DNA from: Arthrobacter bambusae
GTDB taxonomy: Bacteria; Actinomycetota; Actinomycetes; Actinomycetales; Micrococcaceae
Length of the DNA stretch: 64,000 nucleotides
NCBI RefSeq assembly: GCF_030812595.1
Contig: NZ_JAUSSZ010000008.1
Span: forward strand, 1-64,000
Reading direction: 5' to 3'
The notes below the pieces were generated by a model. It ran no database searches and was not told the origin of the DNA. It saw nothing but the letters and a program-made list of their open reading frames with translations. Made by a program: the position numbers and the translations under genes. The first letter of the stretch is position 1. Every line of letters begins with the position of its first letter. Below, in pieces: positions 6,647 to 63,303 of the stretch.

Positions 6647-7497
6647 GATTCGACGGCCAAGGCCCGTTCGGCCGCTACGTCAAACTCGGCTTTCGGCCAT
6701 CTCAGGTCCAGCTTCCCGAGGGCTTCGAGCAGAAGCTCCTGGACAGCGATCCTCGCAAACCATTTCTTGTTCGCCGGAACCACATACCAGGGCGCCACAT
6801 CGGTTGAAGTTTTCTCGAACACCAGCTGGTAGGCCTCCATGTAGGAATCCCAAAGGGCGCGTTCCTTCAGATCGCTCGTGTTGTACTTCCAGTGCTTGGA
6901 CGGGTCATCCAATCGCGCCAGCAGGCGCGTTTTTTGTTCGTCACGGCTGATGTTGAGCATGACCTTGACGATCGTCGTGCCTTGTTCGGCAAGGCGCGCC
7001 TCGAACTCGTTGATGGCTGCATAGCGCCGTTCCAGTTCAGCTTCATTGGCCCAACCGTGCACGCGGTGTATCAGCACGTCCTCGTAGTGGGAGCGGTCAA
7101 AAACCCCGACGATCCCAGGGCCGGGCAGTGCCCTTTCGACGCGCCACAGGAAATCGTGCACCTTCTCCTCATCAGTCGGAGCCTTGAACGGAACAACCTT
7201 GACTCCCTGGGGGTCCATCGATCCCACGACGTGCTCAACGATCCCGCCTTTGCCTGCGGTGTCCATAGCCTGCAGGATCAACAGCACCCGTTTGGAGCTG
7301 CCGAATTTTCCCTCGGCGAAGAGCATCTCCTGCAGGACATCCAAACGGCCGTCCTGCGCTTCCAGCAAAGCGACGCCGTCAGGCTTCTTCCCCTTGTACC
7401 CGGGCGTCGATTCGGGGTCTACGGCCTCCAACGAGAAACCGGGACCGGCCTTCAAGATCGCGGATACCTGCCTAGTGAACTCCTTGATGCCGGCCAT
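6643..7497 (-). CDS. ppk2: Polyphosphate:nucleotide phosphotransferase, PPK2 family
   Basis: Transfers phosphate between polyphosphate and a nucleoside mono- or diphosphate. The 284-residue single-domain protein has Walker A AMDTAGKGG, Walker B VFDRSHYEDVL, the lid NISRDEQKTRLLARLDDPSKHWKY and the PWYVVPANKKWFAR block, all typical of PPK2. Single-domain forms are usually class I or class III; the subclass cannot be fixed by eye. It is convergent with xseB and downstream of alaA on the same strand with a 50-bp gap. Confidence 0.93.
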   Translation of the reverse strand: MAGIKEFTRQVSAILKAGPGFSLEAVDPESTPGYKGKKPDGVALLEAQDGRLDVLQEMLFAEGKFGSSKRVLLILQAMDTAGKGGIVEHVVGSMDPQGVKVVPFKAPTDEEKVHDFLWRVERALPGPGIVGVFDRSHYEDVLIHRVHGWANEAELERRYAAINEFEARLAEQGTTIVKVMLNISRDEQKTRLLARLDDPSKHWKYNTSDLKERALWDSYMEAYQLVFEKTSTDVAPWYVVPANKKWFARIAVQELLLEALGKLDLRWPKAEFDVAAERALAVES

Positions 7498-7547
7498 GTC
7501 GATGTCCCCTTTGGTCAGGCTGCATTCCTCGCGGCTTGCACAACAGG

Positions 7548-58678: not shown

Positions 58679-59314
58679 TCAGCAAAGCGGTTGTGCGCCG
58701 CAGCGCCCCTCACCGGAGGCGGGAAAACAACGATCACCCAATACATCTCCAGCGGCTTTGACTACGTTTACTCCTGCATCTGACGCGTCTCGTGCGGCAG
58801 CGTGCTTCAGCTTCAGTTCGAGCGATTCCACCAGAAGGTCCAGCGGCTGCGTGATGTCGCCCAGCACGTGGGTCTCGTCCGCTTTCAGGTCCTCAAGTGC
58901 GGCGAACTGGGAGTCCAGCAGTGTGCGCGGCATGAACTCGTGGGACCGGGCATCCATCCGGGCGCCGATTGTTGCCGCAGTTCCAGCCAAGTGGACGAAG
59001 ACAATGTCCGGTGCATAACTGCGCAGGAGGTCCCGGTACCGCCGCTTCAGCGCGGAGCAGGCAACAATCGGTGGGACTCCCACGCCGCCGTCGTCCTTTC
59101 CTGCAAGCAGCTCCCCCAGCCGGGCAAGCCACGGCTCCCGGTCACTGTCCGTCAGTGGAACCCCGGCGGTCATCTTTTGCTTGTTGGCTGCTGGATGGAA
59201 ATCATCCCCGTCAAAGAACGGCATGAGGAGCCGCTGCCCCAGGAGGGCGCCGACGGTGGACTTGCCGCAGCCCGAGACTCCCATCACCACCAGCGGAGGC
59301 AGGTGCGCCCTCAC
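58679..59314 (-). CDS. gntK: Gluconokinase with atypical C-terminus
   Basis: GntK-type kinase, 211 residues. It has P-loop [46 protein letters not shown] and HEFMPRTLLDSQFAALEDL. The family sequence ends near TQPLDLLVESLELKL; the last 35 or so residues (after KHAAARDAS) are unlike any gluconokinase and reach into the decayed region. This suggests the normal stop was lost by a rearrangement. It overlaps idnD by 4 bp and should phosphorylate gluconate from the idonate route. Confidence 0.85.
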   Translation of the reverse strand: MRAHLPPLVVMGVSGCGKSTVGALLGQRLLMPFFDGDDFHPAANKQKMTAGVPLTDSDREPWLARLGELLAGKDDGGVGVPPIVACSALKRRYRDLLRSYAPDIVFVHLAGTAATIGARMDARSHEFMPRTLLDSQFAALEDLKADETHVLGDITQPLDLLVESLELKLKHAAARDASDAGVNVVKAAGDVLGDRCFPASGEGRCGAQPLC

Positions 59315-60387
59315 TGGACATGCCCCGCGTCGCGGAAGGAGAGGAGCACCTTGCCGGAGCTGGTGGAGTCCTTGGCCACCTCGAAGGCGCGGAGGGCTTC
59401 GGCCAGCGGGAATTCGTGCGTGATGACGGGCTCGATGTGAAGGGAGCCGTCAGCGAGGGCCGCGATCACGTCGTCGATCTCGTCGTTGAAGCGGAACGAG
59501 CCCAGCAGTTGCAGTTCGCGGGTGATCGCAAGCGCGATGGGCACCGGCTGCATGCCGGTGGGCAGCAGCCCAACCATCACCACGGTGCCGCCGCGCACCG
59601 CGCCGCGGATGGCCGAGGCCAGCCCGTGGTGGTTGCCGGAGGATTCGATCACGACGTCGGCCTCCACGGCGGCGATGGCTTCGGCGTCCGCGGCGTTGAT
59701 CACGTCATCCGCGCCGACGTCCGTGGCGATTTCCAACGGCTTGGGATGGAGGTCGACGGCGGTGATGCGGGCGGCGCCGGCGCGTTTGAGGACGGCGACG
59801 GCGAGGGCGCCGATGGGGCCGGAGCCGATGACCAGCGCGGTCTTCCCGCGGACGTCCCCGGCCCTGGACACGGCATGCCACGCGACGGACGCGGGTTCTA
59901 TCAGTGCCGCGGTGCGCAGGTAGATGCTGTCCGGGAGCGGGCGGAGCATCCGGACGGGCAGCGTGACATAGCGACTGAAGGCACCGTTCGTGTGCGGGTA
60001 GCGGGCGGCGCTGCCCAGATAGGTGCAGCCAGGAGACAAGTTGGGCCGGTCCTCCGGATAGCGCCCGGCGCCGGGGCCCGGGGTGGCGGGGTGGACGGTG
60101 ACGGCAGTTCCGGCCTCCGGTCCGGACCCGTTGGCCGCGGCGAGGACCACCGTGCCGGAGATCTCATGGCCCAGGACCAGCGGGGTCTTCAGGATGGACT
60201 CCCCCGCTGCGCCGTGCAGCCAGTAGTGCAGATCCGAGCCGCAGATGCCGCCGTAGCGGACCTCGATCACTGCTTCGTCGGCTGCGGGCGAGGGCAACGG
60301 GACCTCGTCGATCCGCAGGTCGCCGGCGGCGTGGGCCACCAGCGCAGGACCCGTGGCGGGCAATGCGATATCAAGGGGCGTTGCCAT
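59311..60387 (-). CDS. idnD: L-idonate 5-dehydrogenase-type zinc alcohol dehydrogenase
   Basis: Medium-chain dehydrogenase of 358 residues. It has catalytic-zinc motifs GGICGSDLHYWLHG and LVLGHEISGTV, ALIEPASVAWHAV, and the cofactor fold ALVIGSGPIGALAVAVLKRAGA. The IdnD assignment rests on the HYWLHG sequence and on gntK and an idnO relic in the same operon. It would oxidise L-idonate to 5-keto-D-gluconate. It overlaps both neighbours by 4 bp. Confidence 0.88.
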   Translation of the reverse strand: MATPLDIALPATGPALVAHAAGDLRIDEVPLPSPAADEAVIEVRYGGICGSDLHYWLHGAAGESILKTPLVLGHEISGTVVLAAANGSGPEAGTAVTVHPATPGPGAGRYPEDRPNLSPGCTYLGSAARYPHTNGAFSRYVTLPVRMLRPLPDSIYLRTAALIEPASVAWHAVSRAGDVRGKTALVIGSGPIGALAVAVLKRAGAARITAVDLHPKPLEIATDVGADDVINAADAEAIAAVEADVVIESSGNHHGLASAIRGAVRGGTVVMVGLLPTGMQPVPIALAITRELQLLGSFRFNDEIDDVIAALADGSLHIEPVITHEFPLAEALRAFEVAKDSTSSGKVLLSFRDAGHVQ

Positions 60388-60479
60388 CAGACCACCACCG
60401 CCGTTCCGCCATCGATGAAGATGGTTTGTCCGTTCACGAAGTTGGAAACGCGGCCCGTGAGGTCGAACAACGCGCTCAT
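60387..60479 (-). pseudogene. Internally deleted gluconate 5-dehydrogenase (idnO relic)
   Basis: A 30-codon in-frame relic of a short-chain dehydrogenase. It keeps the first 11 residues (MSALFDLTGRV) joined to the last 19 (SNFVNGQTIFIDGG...), losing about 220 residues with the cofactor and YxxxK sites. Start and stop still overlap the flanking genes by 4 bp, so translation coupling of the operon is preserved. Confidence 0.85.
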
Positions 60480-61417
60480 GCGAAAGGACCCTCCTGGACG
60501 AGGTTGGCCGGGATGTGGCCGGCGGCCAGCGCCTCGAGCTGCTGTTTCAGGAGCTTGAGGATCCGGGGCTCGAAGGCCGAGGCGTTGCCGCCCACGTGTG
60601 GGGTGATCAGCGCGTTCTCCGCGGACCACAGCGGGTGCCCGGCGGGCAGCGGTTCGGGATCGACGACGTCGATGGCGCATTGCAGTCGCCCGGACACCAC
60701 TTCCCGGGTCAGGGCATCGGTGTCCACCACGGCTCCGCGGCCCACGTTCACCACCAGGGCACCGTCGGGCATGGCGGCAAGGACGTCCCGGCCCACCAGG
60801 TGGTGGGTGTCATCATTCAGGGGCAGGACGGAGACCAGGATGTCGTGGCCAGCCGCGAGGGCCACCAGTTCGTCCGGGCCGTGGACCTGCCCGGCCGCGT
60901 CGGTGCGGGCCGTGCTTCCCACCCGTGTGATGGTGACTTCGAACGGTTCCAGGCGGCGGCCGAGTTCCTTGCCGATCCCGCCGATGCCCAGCAGCAGGAC
61001 CTTGCGGTCGGCCAGCGACTGGCGACGCTGCGGCTTCCAGCTTTCAACCTGCTGGTCCTTGACGGCCTGGTCGATGCCGCGCAGCTTGGCGAGGATGAGG
61101 CCAACGGCCAGTTCCGCGGTGGCAGCCGCATGGACTCCCGAGGCGTTTGCTACTGCGGCGCGCGGACCGGCAGCCTCGCGGACGCCGTCGTACCCTGTTG
61201 ACTGCGTCTGAACGAACTTGAGGTCCGGGACCTTGCCCAGAGAACCCAGCACTGTCCCGGCGTCCAGGTACGGGAGGATGACACCGTCGATGCCGCCCAT
61301 ATCCTCCCCCGGCTCCTCCTTCATGTCCCAGACCACCCCGCGCAGGCTGCCGGGAAGCGGCGACAGGTCAGCGAGGAGCTGGGGATCGGGGAAACTGACG
61401 GTTCGTACTAACTGCAT
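60476..61417 (-). CDS. D-2-hydroxyacid dehydrogenase
   Basis: NAD(P)-dependent 2-hydroxyacid dehydrogenase, 313 residues. The Rossmann motif is LLLGIGGIGKELGRRL, followed by NVGRGAVVDTDALTREV, the substrate Arg region, CAIDVVDPEPLP and the catalytic His in ITPHVGGNA. The product may reduce a keto-sugar acid; exact substrate unknown. It overlaps the idnO relic by 4 bp. Confidence 0.9.
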   Translation of the reverse strand: MQLVRTVSFPDPQLLADLSPLPGSLRGVVWDMKEEPGEDMGGIDGVILPYLDAGTVLGSLGKVPDLKFVQTQSTGYDGVREAAGPRAAVANASGVHAAATAELAVGLILAKLRGIDQAVKDQQVESWKPQRRQSLADRKVLLLGIGGIGKELGRRLEPFEVTITRVGSTARTDAAGQVHGPDELVALAAGHDILVSVLPLNDDTHHLVGRDVLAAMPDGALVVNVGRGAVVDTDALTREVVSGRLQCAIDVVDPEPLPAGHPLWSAENALITPHVGGNASAFEPRILKLLKQQLEALAAGHIPANLVQEGPFA

Positions 61418-61481: not shown

Positions 61482-62243
61482 TTAGTCAGAGTCCCCCCGG
61501 CGGTCGAAGGTCAGGCCGCCGGGGACCTGGAACGTGGGCATGAGTTCCAGCATGCCCACGTTGACGTGCCGCGGGGTTTCGATGGCGTAGTCCAGGGCGT
61601 TAACGATGTCATCGGTGGTCAGCGACTCGTAGCCTTCGTAGTACGTTTGCCAGGCTTCTTCCATGGCTTCCGGGCTGCCGCCCATATTCCGGCCGAAAAT
61701 CTCGGTTTCCACCCGGCCGGGGCAGATTTCGGTGACGCGGATGCGCTTGCCCACGGTGTCGTTGCGCAGTTGGCGGGAGATCTGGTGCACCGCCGCCTTG
61801 GTGGCGTGATAGACAGTGTGGCCGTAGAAGTTGTAGGTGCCTGCGATGGAGCTGATGTTGACCACGTGGCCAAGGTCCCGCTCCACCATGCCGGGCAGGA
61901 CCAGCCGGGTCAGCTGCAGCAACCCGCGGAGGTTCACGTCCACCAGTTCGTCGATGTCTTGCTCGGAGGAGTCCAGGATGTTTCCGGGACGGGACACCCC
62001 GGCACAGTTCACCAGGACGTCCACCTTGAGGTCGCGGACGACGGCGGCCAGGGCGGTGGTGTCAGTCAGGTCCACCACGTGCGGGACTGCTCCCGTACGG
62101 TCCGCCAGTTCAGCGAGACGTTCCTCGTTGCGGGCCACCGCGTGGACGATCAGGCCGCGCTTGGCCAGCCGTTCGGCGATGGCGGCGCCCATGCCGGTGG
62201 ATGCGCCGGTGACGAGGGCGGTGGTGTAGTCGGAAAAAGGCAT
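61482..62243 (-). CDS. SDR family oxidoreductase
   Basis: Classical short-chain dehydrogenase of 253 residues from ATG 62243. It has TGASTGMGAAIAERL, LVNCAGVSRPG, the catalytic Ser in VVNISSIAG and YHATKAAVHQIS (YxxxK). The frame is open upstream but overlaps the pxpC gene there. It lies 64 bp upstream of the 2-hydroxyacid dehydrogenase gene. Substrate unknown. Confidence 0.9.
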   Translation of the reverse strand: MPFSDYTTALVTGASTGMGAAIAERLAKRGLIVHAVARNEERLAELADRTGAVPHVVDLTDTTALAAVVRDLKVDVLVNCAGVSRPGNILDSSEQDIDELVDVNLRGLLQLTRLVLPGMVERDLGHVVNISSIAGTYNFYGHTVYHATKAAVHQISRQLRNDTVGKRIRVTEICPGRVETEIFGRNMGGSPEAMEEAWQTYYEGYESLTTDDIVNALDYAIETPRHVNVGMLELMPTFQVPGGLTFDRRGDSD

Positions 62244-62289
62244 TGGTACTCCAAAAAGTGGGAATGGTGGGCTAAAACATTCATGGTGT

Positions 62290-63303
62290 TCAGGCTCCGG
62301 ACGCTGGGCTGAGTTCGTACCAGCGCTGGCCGGCACCGATCCCGAGGAGACCGAAGACTGTGTTGATGGTGTTCCGTAATCTGTCGAGTTCCAGGCAGGC
62401 TGTGCGGTGCATGGCTGTTGCTTCAGCCACCGTTGTTTTTCTAAAGGTGACGGTGTGTCCGGGCCTGGCTTGTGCCAAGAGGTCAAGGGAACGGCTGGTG
62501 ACCACTGCCAGGACCGGATAGCCCGCCGTAACGCCGCGTCCCCGGTGCAGTACCAGCAGCTCATCCCGGGACGGGACCTCGATGGCCCCGACCGGAACGC
62601 CGCGGGAGAGCACTTCTGACGTGAGCTGACGCTCGGGAAGGGCACCACCGAGGCGCAGTCCGATGTGGTTGCTGCGCGGGCTCACGGTGTACTGCGTGGT
62701 GAACAGCAGCTCGGCCGTGTCCCCGAATTCCGTTACGTCCGGCCCGTCGGTGACATCGATGACCGGGTTAGTGGTGAAGACAGGTTTGGTGATGCCCAGC
62801 CGGAACAGCGGCAAGCCAAAGTGTGGCTGGGTGATGGGCGCGGTGGTCTTCCGTGTTTCCAGGCGGAAGCCCTCCACGAGCTTCAACCCGAAGCCCACAA
62901 CCGTGTCCGGGGCGCAGCTGCCCAGCAGGCTGGGGACCGTGAAGGATCCGTGGACGGCGATGTAGGCCCGCAGTCCGGTCCGGATGCCGCGGACGGCCAC
63001 GACTTCGCCGGCCCGTACGGACACCGGTTCCCATTGCGGGCATTCGCGGCCGCCCACCATGAGGTCCAGGGGTGCACCGGTGACGGCGATCAGCAGGTCG
63101 GTGGTGGCCCGCATCCGGAAGTCCAGCGCAGTGAGTTCGAACAGGGGATCGTTGTCTTCGTTGCCGGCAAGGATGTTGGCCGCCCTGGCTGAATACTGGT
63201 CCAGGGCGCCGTTGACGGGAAGTCCGAATGCAGGGCCCTTCGTCCGGCCGAGGTCGGTGACCACGGAATGGCCCGGCTGCAGGATGACCAAAGAACCGGT
63301 CAT
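62290..63303 (-). CDS. pxpC: 5-oxoprolinase subunit C / biotin-dependent carboxyltransferase family
   Basis: KipA/PxpC-family protein of 337 residues. It has LQPGHSVVTDLGRTKGPAFGLPVNGALD (in parts), the NPLLE-type DPLFELTALDFRMRA, RSNHIGLRLGG and the DELLVLHRGRGVTAGYPVLAVV end. With PxpA and PxpB it cleaves 5-oxoproline; without a visible PxpA the reaction is uncertain. It overlaps pxpB by 4 bp. Confidence 0.9.
   Translation of the reverse strand: MTGSLVILQPGHSVVTDLGRTKGPAFGLPVNGALDQYSARAANILAGNEDNDPLFELTALDFRMRATTDLLIAVTGAPLDLMVGGRECPQWEPVSVRAGEVVAVRGIRTGLRAYIAVHGSFTVPSLLGSCAPDTVVGFGLKLVEGFRLETRKTTAPITQPHFGLPLFRLGITKPVFTTNPVIDVTDGPDVTEFGDTAELLFTTQYTVSPRSNHIGLRLGGALPERQLTSEVLSRGVPVGAIEVPSRDELLVLHRGRGVTAGYPVLAVVTSRSLDLLAQARPGHTVTFRKTTVAEATAMHRTACLELDRLRNTINTVFGLLGIGAGQRWYELSPASGA

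Follow-up and report, generated by a model that had tools for sequence, protein, structure and literature searches.

The window, a 64,000-nucleotide stretch of Arthrobacter bambusae DNA, carries on its minus strand an idn-type operon in which a short remnant of idnO stands between a hydroxyacid dehydrogenase gene and an idnD-like gene (Table 1). Read from 60479 to 60387, the remnant encodes MSALFDLTGRV then SNFVNGQTIFIDGGTAVVV and ends in a TGA stop. An ATGA overlap at 60476-60479 joins the 2-hydroxyacid dehydrogenase gene to the start of the remnant, while the remnant is joined to idnD by TGATG, a 1-base overlap in which the stop TGA occupies 60389-60387 and the idnD ATG starts at 60387. A preliminary description of this DNA had read both overlaps as ATGA, which is correct for the upstream one and has to be amended for the downstream one. 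The idnD and gntK frames downstream of the remnant are both open and overlap each other by GTGA. Ahead of the idn genes lie PxpABC-like genes of the 5-oxoprolinase type, named by eye except for the CT_A_B match, and an SDR gene, in the same order as in relatives (window 61482-63303; L068:1301-2976); the carboxyltransferase gene of this set is the one that we take to be PxpC-like. The substrates implied for the enzymes of the window idn genes are no more than likely, as the names were given by family at scores below equivalog cut-offs.

Table 1 Features of the idn-type operon in the window and of the second locus in the same genome
Feature	Position	Strand	Remarks
Carboxyltransferase domain A/B gene	62290..63303	minus	Pfam CT_A_B; upstream, gene order common to relatives
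YdfG-like SDR	61482..62243	minus	Best NCBIfam model, below its cut-off; same place in relatives with idnO
D-2-hydroxyacid dehydrogenase family gene	60476..61417	minus	NCBIfam and Pfam scans; ATGA overlap with remnant start
30-codon in-frame idnO remnant	60387..60479	minus	Codons 1-11 plus 238-256 of a 256-codon idnO-type SDR gene
Deletion junction	60446..60448	minus	Best-fitting breakpoint after remnant base 32 or 33; 678 bp gone
idnD-like zinc alcohol dehydrogenase	59311..60387	minus	Top NCBIfam model L-idonate 5-dehydrogenase (228.9 bits; cut-off 469)
Gluconokinase, GntK/IdnK type	58679..59314	minus	175.2 bits, above subfamily cut-off 113.75
Second idn-type locus	G000:C6:218000-235869 (L069:2962-10811)		Intact idnO and idnD-like gene within ~8 kb

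Alignment with a 256-codon idnO gene placed the loss at codons 12-237, that is 226 codons, with the reading frame preserved, and together with the sequence it confirmed the position, strand, 30-codon length and division into 11 plus 19 residues that had been proposed at the outset. Against L085, the syntenic locus of a relative (G035), the two breakpoint choices fit equally well, each leaving 9 mismatches in 93 bases; the same alignment revealed no extra bases inserted between the two ends of the remnant, and no long sequence shared by the two deletion ends was found in L085. Because both ends of the remnant match the ends of an existing gene, one that is intact at the same syntenic place, it is more than a chance open-reading frame. 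The missing codons include both the nucleotide-binding domain with its glycine-rich loop and the catalytic motif YxxxK, without which a product of 30 residues cannot act as an SDR enzyme; alone, it matched no NCBIfam or Pfam model. By comparison, the intact relative L008 matches the IdnO/gluconate 5-dehydrogenase family of SDR proteins (PDB 4ibo, 5u9p) by sequence over nearly its whole length, a family to which the window copy, with 30 of 256 codons, cannot belong as an enzyme.

The proposal that idnO had been cut down to an in-frame remnant was borne out by this alignment and by the full gene in L085, where an intact 256-codon idnO lies between the hydroxyacid dehydrogenase gene and idnD. The window and L085 have in common the gene order RraA, LysR, PxpA, PxpB, PxpC, SDR, dehydrogenase, IdnO, IdnD and GntK (the first five names were assigned by eye, only the PxpC-like gene having been scanned, with CT_A_B), their dehydrogenase and IdnD proteins are 93% and 92% identical, and the overlaps of the remnant with both neighbours are the same as those of the full gene. 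A scan of the named genomes with the dehydrogenase returned 34 loci, of which 26 from Arthrobacter, Pseudarthrobacter and Paenarthrobacter were examined (L033-L058) and eight weaker ones (L059-L066, 31-48% identity) were left out. The next detected gene after the dehydrogenase was idnO in 25 of the 26 loci, the one miss being L057, from a MAG, with a dehydrogenase 65% identical and no idnO hit. In 21 of those 25, idnO aligned as one unbroken piece of essentially full length; it was cut by the contig end in L034 and garbled in L049, L050 and L052. Detection of gntK at 10 of the 26 loci makes the kinase a less constant member of the gene set. In G180, the YdfG-like SDR gene is present in two copies that flank the idn genes (L086:1940-2680, 6770-7516), one of them adjoining an MFS-type transporter gene.

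The junction itself is rare. A 42-base pattern allowing up to 3 mismatches found it in 1 of 206 genomes of the genus, that of the window, in a search covering one genome per species. When 198 genomes were searched with a 501-base query, the window's own genome was the sole one to give an unbroken match among the matches listed. Comparison of the operon with plasmid records by megablast gave just two matches, both in Shinella and 32 bases each, and a literature search at the level of titles and the beginnings of abstracts turned up nothing that concerned this locus or a remnant of idnO, a result that does not prove absence from print.

The remnant tail also differs from its intact counterparts. 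It reads TA where all 39 distinct intact genes read MT, which amounts to two missense changes; these genes were picked from the examined loci, of both locus types, by a length of 256, LFDLTGR at the head and a tail containing FVNGQT. Among the 19-codon tails of the 39 intact genes, the mean was 0.64 missense codons per pair, with two or more in 5.3% of 741 pairs. By a hand count, 35 of the 39 have the TGATG form at the idnD boundary. The two unique missense changes suggest drift following the deletion, over a small number of sites.

These observations bear on whether the strain in fact has a full-length idnO here, with 678 bp dropped by the assembler or through a chimeric read. The assembly is a draft of 39 contigs, and the garbled genes of three relatives, with duplicated pieces and N at two joints, demonstrate that idnO can be mis-assembled. 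However, the junction lies inside a contig of 227,788 bases, the frame is kept exactly, the deletion ends have no long shared sequence in L085, unlike a repeat collapse, and the two tail changes are absent from every one of the 39 intact genes, so that such an artefact is improbable. The three garbled genes, which might have been taken for broken idnO at this place in other species, were themselves set aside, as they consist of head-to-tail duplicated pieces with N at two joints, and they are probably assembly faults. The duplicated pieces are ~93-227 bases long (L049:6942-7937, L050:7088-8267, L052:7045-7919). On the sequence evidence, the deletion is probably real and of an ordinary kind, a redundant copy of a gene having been lost in frame, with an artefact the less likely reading.

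The redundancy comes from contig 6 of the same genome, where an intact 256-aa IdnO-like protein with zero stops is encoded at G000:C6:224462-225229, beside a second IdnD-like gene. Its identity with the intact IdnO of L008, which is of the window type, is 87%, and the adjacent IdnD-like protein is 78% identical to the window IdnD. No other SDR match in the genome exceeds 39% identity, so the contig-6 protein is the one close IdnO of this genome. A 6-phosphogluconate dehydrogenase gene at the same locus scored above its model cut-off, and further neighbours resembling a 2-hydroxy-3-oxopropionate reductase, another hydroxyacid dehydrogenase and a metabolite/H+ symporter scored below theirs. The two intact IdnO proteins that were scanned, from L085 and contig 6, reached 280-293 bits with two gluconate 5-dehydrogenase models whose cut-offs are 369-408, and the best model for both was a general SDR subfamily, also under its cut-off; both match NCBIfam NF005983 and NF005488 over the whole length, under the curated cut-offs.

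With an intact IdnO-like protein encoded on contig 6, the preliminary view that 5-ketogluconate made by IdnD is left with no visible reductase is not supported. Nor is there support for the accompanying idea of a takeover by the SDR at 61482 or by the 2-hydroxyacid dehydrogenase at 60476: both were rejected as replacements because relatives keep both genes, in the same order, beside idnO. The substrates of 2-hydroxyacid dehydrogenases are 2-keto acids, which makes the latter enzyme a poor candidate for a 5-keto reduction. The whole-genome search thus removes the claimed metabolic gap, and shows that a step which looks absent from a pathway within one window may be supplied by genes located outside it.

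The distribution of the two loci was compared across the genus. At E <= 1e-110, with 13 first-look candidates scored per genome so that counts may be low, at least 164 of 206 genomes have one or more such IdnO proteins, and at least 42, by a hand count, have two or more; in G035 a single one passes this threshold, the one at the syntenic place. The 14 genomes nearest to the source are 94-96% identical to it over a 1,848-base rpoB stretch. In 13 of them, the contig-6 stretch of 2,787 bases (reductase-like gene, idnO and idnD) is nearly whole at 86-92% DNA identity, and the fourteenth, G090, matches it at 84% over about half. Among the matches listed, an IdnO protein match at E <= 1e-110 was present in 12 of the 14; G131 appears in the list but lacks one, and G090 does not appear among the matches listed, although both match the contig-6 locus in DNA. 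The DNA matches of G131 to this stretch lie at G131:C1:4275779-4278554 and G131:C1:231174-233910 (91% and 86%), and the missing protein match perhaps reflects frameshifts in that assembly. For the dehydrogenase of the window operon, no homologue above 70% identity was found in the same 14 genomes, two having one at 68-70%, nine at 46-48% and three nothing at E <= 1e-60. In seven other genomes, selected as earlier matches and 93-94% identical in rpoB, the dehydrogenase is 89-93% identical in all seven. This distribution indicates that the window operon is patchy in the group; this second copy was perhaps gained horizontally, a reading that we prefer to repeated loss as the source of the patchiness.

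Taken together, the locus is, with high probability, the product of a 678-bp in-frame deletion of idnO in a second idn-type operon, whose copy would be dispensable given the intact idnO of contig 6. Comparison shows that the window operon once had a full idnO between its hydroxyacid dehydrogenase gene and idnD, and that codons 12-237 were removed in frame by a deletion whose ends carry no long repeat. Because a complete IdnO is still encoded at the contig-6 idnO-idnD locus, the window copy was probably dispensable, and 5-ketogluconate from either IdnD could be reduced by the contig-6 enzyme. What is left is a non-catalytic frame of 30 residues that, judging from ATGA and TGATG, may pass ribosomes coming from the gene upstream on to idnD; with the overlaps kept, translation of idnD could go on unchanged, the geometry being the part of this coupling that is seen. 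Against this explanation stand the draft state of the assembly, the garbled idnO of the three relatives, the coverage of one genome per species, the enzyme names given below cut-off, the small number of missense changes and, among the matches listed, the want of an IdnO protein match for G131 and G090.

A further reading places the remnant itself under selection, as a coupling mini-cistron that would take over ribosomes at the end of the hydroxyacid dehydrogenase gene and bring them to idnD, its tail serving as the translation start region of idnD. In its favour, the remnant is in frame, both overlaps are kept and the downstream idnD and gntK frames are open; however, about one third of random deletions are in frame anyway, the tail carries two missense changes, and the remnant is known from one genome only. 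We consider such selection a shade less probable even than an artefact. The fuller proposal, that the 30-codon frame was selected as a translated coupling element that is no enzyme, delivering ribosomes to idnD and gntK while the operon feeds 5-ketogluconate to the IdnO of the other locus, would likewise have only a small chance of being right. Short in-frame ends are a common design in non-polar laboratory deletions, and the shape of the deletion alone would fit a markerless deletion made in this way, but the absence of inserted bases between the two ends, and two tail substitutions that are unseen in all 39 intact genes and point to an older event, make this very improbable.

The preferred reading, loss of a redundant copy, places the remnant in a known class, as in-frame deletions inside operons leave gene remnants. 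It resembles others of this class in its in-frame joined ends, its open flanking genes and the intact paralogue elsewhere, and nothing essential differs, the window remnant still overlapping its two neighbours at its start and its stop. The L-idonate (GntII) genes of E. coli comprise idnD, idnO and idnK, and the window operon is alike in being of the idnD, idnO and gluconokinase type, whereas it has hydroxyacid dehydrogenase, SDR and carboxyltransferase genes ahead and its idnO is deleted. The deletion would have little importance beyond this genome, where it may serve as a clean example of a redundant gene lost from a tightly overlapped operon with its neighbours staying open.
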